Below, in pieces: positions 11,225 to 13,476 of a stretch of DNA of 64,000 nt. Position 1 is the stretch's first letter. Each line of letters opens with the position of its first letter. The stretch spans positions 124,001 to 188,000 of the forward strand of contig NZ_JAPVBH010000008.1 in NCBI RefSeq assembly GCF_026967795.1, written 5' to 3'. Origin of the DNA: Modestobacter sp. VKM Ac-2986. GTDB taxonomy: Bacteria > Actinomycetota > Actinomycetes > Mycobacteriales > Geodermatophilaceae. The notes under the pieces were generated by a model, which had not been told where the DNA came from, searched no databases, and saw only the letters and a list, made by a program, of their open reading frames with translations. The translations under genes were made by a program, and so were the position numbers.

Positions 11225-11271
11225 GCGGAGTGGATCCGTCGCGGTGACCGCGACGGATCCACTCCGCCTCA
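11222..11271. terminator. Bidirectional hairpin containing both stop codons, family B copy 1
   Basis: A perfect 20-bp stem (11225-11244 with 11248-11267) closes on a TGA loop. The TGA stop of the sigma gene (11222-11224) and the stop of the opposite gene (11269-11271) extend the stem, with one bulged C. The core GGAGTGGATCCGT and the TGA loop are shared with copy 2 at 63400-63447. Confidence 0.8.
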
Positions 11272-12276
11272 GCCGTTCTGGGCGGCCATCCGGCGCAGGC
11301 GCTCGTTGTAGGCGACCAGGGCCGGGTCGTCGCCGCTCTCGCCGCGGGCGATGGCGCGGTCGCGGACCCGGTCGGCCGCCTTGTTCGACCGCTCCTCGGA
11401 CTTGGCCCACTGGAAGAACACCACGGCCAGCACCAGCACGGTCGGGAACTCACCGAAGGACCACGCGATGCCGCCGGCCGAGCCCTGGTCGAACAGCGGG
11501 TCGATGCCCCAGGACGCCGGCGGGGTGGCGAAGCTGGTGAGCAGCTCGGTGTTGCTCATCATCACGATGACGCCGAAGAAGGCGTGGAACGGCGCGGGCA
11601 GCAGCAGCTCGAGCATCCGGCCGCCGTGACCGGAGCGGCGCGGCCACGGGTCGATCGCCAGGATCGGGCCGAAGAAGAGCATCCCGGTGGCCAGGAAGTG
11701 CAGCAGCATGAACGTGTGCCCGGGCGTCGTCGCCATCAGGTCGTCGAAGACCGGGGTGAAGTAGACGCCGTAGAGGCTGGCGATGAACAGCGGCACGGTG
11801 AACAGCGGTGAGGAGACCGCCTGCCCGAGCCGGCTGTGCAGCCCGGTGAGCAGCAGCCGCCGGGGCATGCCCGCCAGGCCCTGGTCGGCCGGCAGCGCCC
11901 GCAGCGCCAGCGTGACCGGGGCGCCCATGAGCAGCATCAGCGGCGTGATCATGGTCAGCACCATGTGCTGGATCATGTGCAGGCTGAACAGCGCCATGCC
12001 GTAGGACTGCAGGCCGCTGGCGGTGACCCAGAACAGGCTCGCGCAGCCGGCCATCCAGGCCAGCGTGCGCAGCGGCGACCAGCGCACGCCGCGCTGCCGC
12101 AGCCGCAGCAGCCCGACCGCGTAGCCCACGGCCAGCAGGACGGCCAGCCAGGCGACCGGCGAGGCGGCGCCCATGTCCAGCGCGAGCACCCGGCCCAGCG
12201 TCGGCGGCAGCTCCGGGACGTGCATGTGCATGCCGCCCATGTCGCCGCCCATGCCGCCCATGTTGTGCTCGCCCAC
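11269..12276 (-). CDS. CtaG-like cytochrome c oxidase assembly protein (caa3_CtaG type)
   Basis: A 335-residue polytopic membrane protein of the actinobacterial/Bacillus CtaG family (unrelated to Cox11-type CtaG): SLHMIQHMVLTMITPLMLLM, HFLATGMLFFGPILAIDPWP and FHAFFGVIVMMSNTELLTSF are conserved motifs with paired histidines and methionines inside membrane helices. The N-terminus MGEHNMGGMGGDMGGMHMH is strikingly Met/His-rich and could bind copper. The family is needed for haem-copper oxidase assembly or copper handling. The start is ATG 12276 with GGAGGACGACG upstream. The leader or promoter region carries the five-dyad ladder at 12384-12534. Confidence 0.85.
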   Translation of the reverse strand: MGEHNMGGMGGDMGGMHMHVPELPPTLGRVLALDMGAASPVAWLAVLLAVGYAVGLLRLRQRGVRWSPLRTLAWMAGCASLFWVTASGLQSYGMALFSLHMIQHMVLTMITPLMLLMGAPVTLALRALPADQGLAGMPRRLLLTGLHSRLGQAVSSPLFTVPLFIASLYGVYFTPVFDDLMATTPGHTFMLLHFLATGMLFFGPILAIDPWPRRSGHGGRMLELLLPAPFHAFFGVIVMMSNTELLTSFATPPASWGIDPLFDQGSAGGIAWSFGEFPTVLVLAVVFFQWAKSEERSNKAADRVRDRAIARGESGDDPALVAYNERLRRMAAQNG

Positions 12277-12383
12277 CGTCGTCCTCCTCAGTCCTGCGTG
12301 CGGTCCCCACGGTAGGCCGGTGGCCGGGCCGCCGCCGCACCCCCGGACAGTCGCCCGCCGGCGGTCCCCGGTTCCCGCACGTC

Positions 12384-12534
12384 CGACCAGGTGACCTGAT
12401 CGACGTCCGTCCTCCCGCAGCTGCGGAGGTGCAGGAGGACGAGTCTCTGATCAGGTCACCTGATCAGAAATTGGCCTACCTCAGCAACGCTGGTGAGGTG
12501 GGCCAGACGGTGATCAGGTGACCTGATCACCGTC
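12384..12534. promoter_or_regulatory. Ladder of five inverted repeats at ~31.5-bp spacing
   Basis: Dyads I, III and V share the palindrome GATCAGGT-S-ACCTGATC: 12384-12402 (one mismatch), 12447-12467 (perfect 21-mer) and 12506-12534 (perfect 14-bp arms). Between them lie two unrelated dyads: II (12408-12415 with 12434-12441, around the palindrome CGCAGCTGCG) and IV (12472-12483 with 12494-12505, one wobble). Centres are at 12393, 12424.5, 12457, 12488.5 and 12520, three helical turns apart. The ladder starts 7 bases after the DUF5926 stop and ends 108 bases before the ctaG-like start. It could be an operator array, a structured leader or a compound terminator. Confidence 0.7.
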
Positions 12535-12540
12535 CGGGCG

Positions 12541-13476
12541 TCAGCGCAGGGTGACCTGGCGGGAGAGCAGGCCGGCGCGGGCGCGGCGCTCGTCGCTGGT
12601 CAGCGGGTCGGTCACGGCCAGCGCCTCGGTCAGCCGGGCGTCCAGCTCGGCCGCGGGGCCGGACCAGTCGGCACCCGGGGTCTCGGCCGGGACGTCCCAC
12701 ACCGGGACGACGAGGCCCAGCGCACGGAAGGCGCCGGCGTAGCGGGTGCCCTCCCCCAGGGTCAGCTGCTCGGCCGCCGACAGCCGGGCCAGCGCGTCGA
12801 GCAGCGCCTCCTCCGGCTCGGGGCGGGCCCACCGCACGTGCGCGCGGTCGGTGCTGGGGCGGCACCAGTAGGCGGCCTCGAGCCCGGCCAGCCGCACGGT
12901 GGGCATGACCATCTCGTTGGCCTGCTCGAGCCCGGCCCGGGTGGCGGCGTCGAGCTCGGCGCCCTCCAGCCAGAAGCCGAAGTCGTCGTGCACGGTGACC
13001 TCGAAGGGCGCGGAGAGGTCGAGCAGCTCCTGCAGCCGCGGGCCGGCCGAGCCCGCGCCCCCGATCGGGCCCGGGTCGACCGGGGCGCCGGCGGGGGCCT
13101 GCAGGGCGGCGGCCAGCGCCGTCCCGAGGTCACGGCTGACGTCGTCGGAGGAGGTGGGCAGCTGGACGCCGAGCAGGATCTCGCCGTTGGCGCGCACCAG
13201 GGCCGGGACGGCGCCGGGCAGCACGCTGGCCAGGGTGACCGCGCGGCCCTCGGTGGTGGTCAGGGTCGCCGTGGCGGCGGGGACCAGCTCACGCATCGCC
13301 ACCCAGTCGGGCTCGCCGGGCAGGCCCTCGAACGGGCGCAGCACGGGCTGGGCGTAGCCCGAGCCGTGGCAGTGCTTGTAGCGGCGGCCGGAGCCACAGG
13401 GGCAGGGGGCCTTCGGGTTGATCTCGCCCTCGGCCACGGGGGCGGCAGCGGGACGACGGGTCGCGGTACGGGCCAT
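12541..13476 (-). CDS. DUF5926 family protein with SEC-C zinc motif
   Basis: A 311-residue protein conserved in actinobacteria. The N-terminus carries the SEC-C motif NPKAPCPCGSGRRYKHCHG (residues ~20-38), a zinc-binding element found at the C-terminus of SecA and in many proteins of unknown role. The remainder matches DUF5926 (PFEGLPGEPDWVAMRELVPA near residues 48-67, DDFGFWLEGAELD in the middle). The function is not known. The ATG at 13476 starts MARTATRRPAAAPVAEGE; a longer open frame upstream is not supported. It is divergent from the P450 gene with 76 bases between starts. Confidence 0.85.
   Translation of the reverse strand: MARTATRRPAAAPVAEGEINPKAPCPCGSGRRYKHCHGSGYAQPVLRPFEGLPGEPDWVAMRELVPAATATLTTTEGRAVTLASVLPGAVPALVRANGEILLGVQLPTSSDDVSRDLGTALAAALQAPAGAPVDPGPIGGAGSAGPRLQELLDLSAPFEVTVHDDFGFWLEGAELDAATRAGLEQANEMVMPTVRLAGLEAAYWCRPSTDRAHVRWARPEPEEALLDALARLSAAEQLTLGEGTRYAGAFRALGLVVPVWDVPAETPGADWSGPAAELDARLTEALAVTDPLTSDERRARAGLLSRQVTLR

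Follow-up and report, generated by a model that had tools for sequence, protein, structure and literature searches.

Within the 64,000-nucleotide stretch of Modestobacter sp. VKM Ac-2986 DNA that was analyzed (the window), five inverted repeats form an array between a CtaG-like gene and a gene that we take to encode a SEC-C-motif-like protein and call secC (Table 1). Recomputed dyad centers at positions 12393, 12424.5, 12457, 12488.5, and 12520 gave spacings of 31.5, 32.5, 31.5, and 31.5 bp, identical to the values in the initial annotation of this region. The palindrome that the annotation assigned jointly to dyads I, III, and V was confirmed: III and V match GATCAGGTNACCTGATC exactly, and I differs from it at one base. 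Dyads II and IV had been described as different sequences, a description that did not hold up, both being diverged copies of a second module, B. The 32.5-bp spacing at copy II fits a 1-nt insertion in the alignment of B. Complementary pairs at centers I to V numbered 8, 13, 13, 13, and 15 of 16; beyond its core, dyad I is thus poorly paired. The window contains three matches to the pattern of palindrome A (≤3 mismatches) against 0.14 expected, and at least three matches arose in 0 of 100 shuffles of the window. This five-module array is the longest of those examined; the 94 chains of modules listed, some overlapping and with Streptomyces (L058) and Melainabacteria (L096) loci retained, reach four modules at most.

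Table 1. Features of the secC-ctaG interval, in window coordinates
Feature	Position	Strand	Basis
Whole array A-B-A-B-A of dispersed palindromic repeat	12382..12538		Dyad and repeat searches
Palindrome A copy I (GACCAGGTGACCTGATC), one mismatch	12385..12401		Pattern search
Hairpin B copy II, diverged	12408..12441		Alignment; covariance match E 1.4e-4 at C14:136405-136444
Palindrome A copy III, exact	12449..12465		Pattern search
Hairpin B copy IV	12469..12508		Covariance match E 1.5e-11 at C14:136469-136508
Palindrome A copy V, exact; outer arms reach 12503-12537	12512..12528		Pattern search
Upstream gene secC, presumed SEC-C-motif-like protein	12541..13437	-	ORF; stop 12541-12543, 2 nt from array
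TACCGTG block 5' of ctaG	12308..12314	-	22/22 genomes; presumably promoter-like
CtaG-like gene, downstream	11269..12276	-	Name from initial annotation; relatives have gene without array

The array is built from a 63-bp unit of two modules with centers 31.5 bp apart: palindrome A (GATCAGGTSACCTGATC), which is conserved, and hairpin B, which covaries; the stems of the unit comprise 17 and 11 pairs. Across 112 related stretches, 113 of 129 exact copies of A had a flanking dyad (≥11/16) within 25-40 bp, compared with 352 of 2000 random points having some such dyad, and 110 of 122 such flanking dyads sat at exactly 31.5 bp from A. At 12 loci of the window's own genome, from which three weak matches without B (L011, L013, and L014) were left out, every listed A (18/18) was accompanied on one side by a dyad of at least 10/17 pairs, 31.5 bp away. 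The usual forms of the element were half-B, B, A or A-B-A. Eighty-six units aligned without gaps over 63 columns, and in these units 15 of the 17 pairs of hairpin B had undergone compensatory double changes, with 85.6% of cells paired. Covariation over the whole structure was 0.316, against a shuffle mean of 0.118 and values of at most 0.092 when the structure was slid along the alignment. The core of A is invariant in this alignment, partly because it served as the search key. Judged from the alignment, B appears to be conserved in pairing more than in sequence, and A in sequence. An alternative core, GATCAGCTSAGCTGATC, occurs in all three G066 copies listed and in copies from G044, G052, G077, and G084. 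GATC stands at both ends of most A cores listed (L183-L235), and several other palindromes contain it (flanks of the paralogues L276, L288, and L289); winged-helix domains have been described in endonucleases that sense adenine methylation (PMC11037411).

The repeat is dispersed. In the window's own genome (4.19 Mb, 15 contigs), 14 exact copies of A were found among 21 places with ≤2 mismatches, compared to one for the reversed pattern. A covariance model of B recovered at least 16 places, namely the known ones plus two without an intact A; these searches scored 150 candidates per genome, and element totals are lower bounds. Exact A was detected in 76 of 112 Geodermatophilaceae genomes, whereas the reversed control gave none; copy number per genome ranged from 0 to 43, and some genomes of the family that are 99-100% complete had no copy. 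Order-wide, it was present in 58 of 397 genomes, all 58 among the 75 Geodermatophilaceae, and in 0 of 322 from other families. Among the matches listed, 112 of 116 stretches belonged to Blastococcus, Modestobacter, Geodermatophilus, Klenkia, or Trujillonella; the four loci outside the family (L058, Streptomyces; L096, Melainabacteria; L115 and L143, Nocardia) were left out. The copies listed for G107 extend across its chromosome. Shuffles, reversed-pattern controls, restriction to the family, and the 110/122 dyads at 31.5 bp rule out a chance palindrome or chance phasing. The initial annotation had linked chance phasing to a palindrome common in the genome and to relatives lacking the spacing: the palindrome is indeed common in its own genome, and relatives lack the array at this site, but the phasing is built into the repeat unit itself. 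From these sequence comparisons, the array is almost certainly a compound copy of a dispersed REP-like palindromic repeat of the Geodermatophilaceae, bacteria of soil and stone. No report of the repeat, or of a gene with flanking palindromes of the kind described below, appears in the titles or abstract openings of the open PMC papers that literature searches listed.

Elements lie preferentially behind genes. Classification was possible for 76 of 87 external sites (five others fell inside an ORF of the simple gene finder, and six lay at an edge), giving 32 convergent, 40 tandem, and 4 divergent sites. All gaps of ≥80 nt in the same loci, elements included, comprised 40 convergent, 163 tandem, and 60 divergent cases. 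In the window's own genome, seven sites were convergent, six tandem, and none divergent. At many sites, roughly 18-31 nt appeared to separate the center of A from a stop codon, an uncounted impression. Mismatches in the stems, read on the transcribed strand, were G.U in 55 cases versus A.C in 25 (44 units at 35 tandem loci, with B entering twice in A-B-A loci; locus-flip p 0.006), and this excess points to constraint on the RNA. No run of T was seen 3' of the array, and an Rfam search of positions 12250-12650 returned 12 matches at E ≤10, none at its gathering score. On balance, we consider it somewhat probable that the elements act as RNA, as 3' barriers or bidirectional terminators.

Minus-strand RNA of the array has a predicted fold of -107 kcal/mol (z -12) in which A(I) pairs with A(III) around B, in agreement with the earlier suggestion that A copies could pair with one another. 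Such a fold is compatible with the idea, put forward in the initial annotation, that ctaG has a cis-regulatory RNA leader in which neighboring hairpins alternate with long-range A-A pairing, possibly in response to copper. However, comparison of the locus across the genus makes this reading highly improbable. Of 23 genomes, all but G091 yielded secC, and in each of these 22 the CtaG-like gene comes next and TACCGTG precedes ctaG. The array, and A itself, is missing from this site in 21/21 relatives; ctaG therefore has no need of it. The secC stop codon is separated from TACCGTG by 226 nt in the window, by 4-11 nt in 8 of the relatives, and by 35-227 nt in the other 13, and several of the longer gaps hold a strong unrelated hairpin, such as the one with 22 consecutive pairs in G094. 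The block common to all genomes sits between the array and ctaG, and the same repeat is found behind other genes. A copper switch or ctaG leader was rejected on these grounds. That a protein reads palindrome A is also plausible. The simplest reading is that the window's lineage acquired the array, at a position that follows secC and precedes the control region of ctaG.

Elsewhere in the same genome, a gene for a 337-aa protein (P0003, G000:C8:452499-453509) is enclosed by two copies of the repeat in inverted orientation, with AceE-like and amidohydrolase-like genes (named by eye) as neighbors. Several genomes have two elements about 1.2 kb apart, and the same type of gene was found between elements in L094, L100, L076, and L114. 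Covariance matches were obtained on either side of the gene in the window's own genome and in G090, G100, G101, G107, G066, G077, G084, G087, G019, G021, and G026; in G066, these flanks carry the core GATCAGCTSAGCTGATC, identical to the dispersed core there. By flank similarity, gene and repeats together occur in at least four different neighborhoods, in several genera. P0003 matches PF13338 AbiEi_4 (E 6.8e-9) and, over residues 11-183, PADLOC AbiEi (2.9e-23). The predicted fold of the L094 orthologue (pLDDT 86.6, from 8 sequences) resembled Rv2827c (1zel, E 3.1e-4) and AbiEi (6y8q, 3.8e-4) in Foldseek, which also aligned the C-terminal part with I-Bth0305I (3r3p; probability 0.98, TM 0.68 on the target, weak E 0.19). 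A profile search placed a weak 3r3p match at positions 237-305 (E 0.1), and DUF559 was matched in just one of eight members (E 0.0085). Taken together, these models predict an AbiEi-type winged helix joined to a putative nuclease-like domain resembling I-Bth0305I. By eye, no AbiEii-type toxin gene was seen beside P0003, the L094 and L100 neighborhoods having also been read, and a plasmid collection gave no homologue at E 1e-5. Two nearby elements alone do not imply a partner gene, because 6 of 15 regions between close element pairs contained no homologue (L237, L238, L245, L247, L249, and L250), and L084, L090, L038, and L077 hold one to three genes between two elements that are unrelated to P0003 by eye.

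We compared the presence of this gene with the number of intact A copies. At the aceE site, gene and repeats occur in 10 of 20 genomes; the gene is frameshifted in G087 and truncated in G088, seven of the 20 lack a homologue, G086 retains a 43-residue remnant, and G102 and G103 were unreadable. At the same site in G105, GGGTCGACCC-type palindromes (L304) stand where relatives hold the gene. Eighteen Modestobacter genomes entered the comparison, five that are <90% complete having been left out; G102 and G103 were scored as lacking the gene on the basis of no close homologue, despite their unreadable aceE site. Exact A numbered 14, 33, 27, 5, 7, 12, 9, and 37 in the eight genomes with the gene there, versus 0, 0, 5, 0, 0, 2, 0, 22 (G086), 3, and 4 in the ten without it (p 0.0011, by a statistic that ignores the tree). 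G094 is close to the window's species (SecC 97% identity; amidohydrolase-like protein 96%) and has no close homologue of the gene (best, 41%) and zero exact A. At an element that G094 shares with the window's genome (L007; 92.9% identity over 3066 nt), the G094 copies of A have decayed and B pairs through changed bases, an observation from one locus. Exact A also occurs at 5, 3, 4, and 2 copies in G085, G102, G103, and G104 without a close homologue; G065 has 41 copies and a distant best homologue (E 6.9e-22), G071 has 6 (best E 3.8e-21), and G086, with its 22, has no close homologue elsewhere. From these genome comparisons, the repeat seems to depend on the nuclease-like gene between two of its copies, and the AbiEi-nuclease gene is likely to be the cognate partner of the repeat.

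Flanking palindromes extend to more distant relatives of the gene. Matching upstream and downstream flanks (score ≥25) were found at 23 of 28 top loci, from which the frameshifted G087 gene (L259/L273) was excluded, and for 15 of 20 distant homologues (29-39% identity) hand-picked from the homologue list; the test thus missed five members in each set. Among 348 control genes, five reached 25, three of them members; among 130 further genes, three did so, two of them members (L114 and L120). This leaves 2/345 and 1/128 non-members, a total of 3/473; a score of ≥26 occurred in 1 of the 345, and the Fisher figure for flanks was based on that count. The two controls among the 345 that reached 25 were L090:786-1643, which lies between two A elements, and L035:2189-2956. 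The flanks of L123:800-2230, a control gene outside the family, match with a score of 31. For two loci below the cutoff (L257 and L277), flanks taken from the match ends do match, in a comparison without a control. Many distant homologues carry, by eye, palindromes unlike A and B on both flanks; the flanks of one gene match each other but differ among paralogues. A paralogue in the window's own genome (L275, G000:C8:489503-490408) has flanks with a palindrome of its own, GTTGAGCCG..CGGCTCAAC, and this palindrome is dispersed, at nine places with ≤3 mismatches (one being its own flank) compared with one for the reversed control. Of three G078 paralogues (L327-L329), one is flanked by GATCAGGTCACCTGATC, one has GATCAGGGCCCCTGATC downstream, and one shows no core of the pattern. 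Free-standing actinobacterial AbiEi-winged-helix/nuclease genes could constitute an extensive and so far undescribed class of systems for mobile repeats, each gene reading its own flanking palindrome through the winged helix and seeding and maintaining dispersed copies of it; we advance this as a tentative proposal that might prove right or wrong with nearly equal chance. Under this proposal, the array in the window would be among the copies so produced, by a route that differs from the HUH chemistry of RAYTs.

For the array itself, we favor the reading that it is a copy of a REP-like repeat, a hairpin behind stop codons, that is probably spread or maintained by the AbiEi-nuclease protein. Copies would settle directly behind stop codons, and, once transcribed, would form strong hairpins that serve most likely as 3' barriers or bidirectional terminators; the array here would separate secC from the region 5' of ctaG. 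Spreading or maintenance would most likely be carried out in trans by the AbiEi-like winged-helix/nuclease-like protein, with palindrome A as the putative recognition site of the protein encoded at G000:C8:452499-453509. Dispersal, architecture, covariation, position, gene flanking, and co-occurrence with A in Modestobacter can be read from the sequences themselves. The protein may bind A, and it might also mobilize the repeat, a step for which we judge the case to be almost evenly balanced.

The same observations could be accounted for by an orphan REP/BIME-like repeat that acts as a terminator or mRNA 3' protector without an enzyme of its own, with AbiEi-nuclease genes merely inserting at hairpins. 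Placement at 3' ends is as described for REPs (PMC3733652), G065 and G086 have many A copies but no close, intact gene, 6 of the 15 close element pairs enclose no homologue, and flanking repeats could mark a hotspot at which the gene inserted. This explanation is nevertheless unlikely, given that the two flanks of each gene match yet differ among paralogues, that gene and A co-occur within Modestobacter, and that in G066 the dispersed core equals the flank core. Still less expected is a genome-wide DNA site, a chromosome organizer or regulator bound on A, with B as a spacer of about three helical turns and the nuclease-like protein as a domesticated binder rather than a mobilizer. Consistent with such a site, B drifts while A is kept (its core being partly the search key), other cores such as GATCAGCTSAGCTGATC take the place of A in some genomes, copies are listed from across the G107 chromosome, and AbiEi antitoxins are described as binding inverted repeats in their promoters (PMC7319586). 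However, copy number ranges from 0 to 43 within the family, with none in some 99-100% complete genomes.

Should the preferred reading, a REP-like repeat with an AbiEi-nuclease partner, be correct, the protein would represent a new type of partner of dispersed palindromic repeats, some families of which, such as the CGTC REPs, are described without a known enzyme (PMC3733652). With a second and unrelated family of proteins whose genes have palindromes of their own on both sides, and whose presence accompanies intact repeat copies in one genus, the question of who moves and maintains such repeats becomes directly testable in harmless soil bacteria. A possible role would also emerge for proteins that the libraries searched recognize mainly as AbiEi.

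REPs are described as dispersed palindromic units in mosaics, found mostly after genes, between convergent or tandem genes (PMC3733652), and in REP/RAYT systems, the gene lies right beside copies of the repeat, whose abundance often correlates with it (PMC3733652, PMC8266576). Like the REP/BIME elements with RAYT (TnpAREP) partners, or REPtrons, the repeat in the array is dispersed, intergenic, and 3' of genes, and an enzyme gene is flanked by its copies, but the enzyme is a different one. Sites without the gene (aceE) and without the array (secC-ctaG) exist in relatives. Unlike REPtrons, the 86-unit consensus has no GTAG tag beside a stem, the stems comprise 17 and 11 pairs, and the flanked gene combines an AbiEi winged helix with a nuclease-like part. 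A RAYT/Y1 transposase was ruled out as the partner: Y1_Tnp (PF01797) had no match in the window's own genome, compared with matches in 5 of 14 control genomes. With neither a GTAG tag nor a Y1 enzyme, the system is therefore REPtron-like in its working and not a member of that class. CGTC-tagged REPs (Di Nocera 2013) are described as having stems of 8-9 bp, loops of 4-5, mostly CCA tails, and no dedicated transposase (PMC3733652); the main text of that paper cites untagged REP-like families of M. tuberculosis and does not contain the word actinobacteria. CGTCC stands at the end of half-B in many of the copies listed (uncounted); the repeat here is a two-module unit with longer stems. P0003-type genes share N-terminal AbiEi-type domains with AbiE type IV toxin-antitoxin systems (AbiEi, Rv2827c) and differ from them in the C-terminal nuclease-like fusion, the repeats both dispersed and on both flanks, and the lack of a toxin neighbor by eye. 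The predicted C-terminal fold of P0003-type proteins may resemble that of I-Bth0305I (3r3p, weak E 0.19), which we take to be Vsr-like; 3r3p is titled a mobile intron protein, whereas here the gene lies between palindromic repeats and the AbiEi part stands in front.
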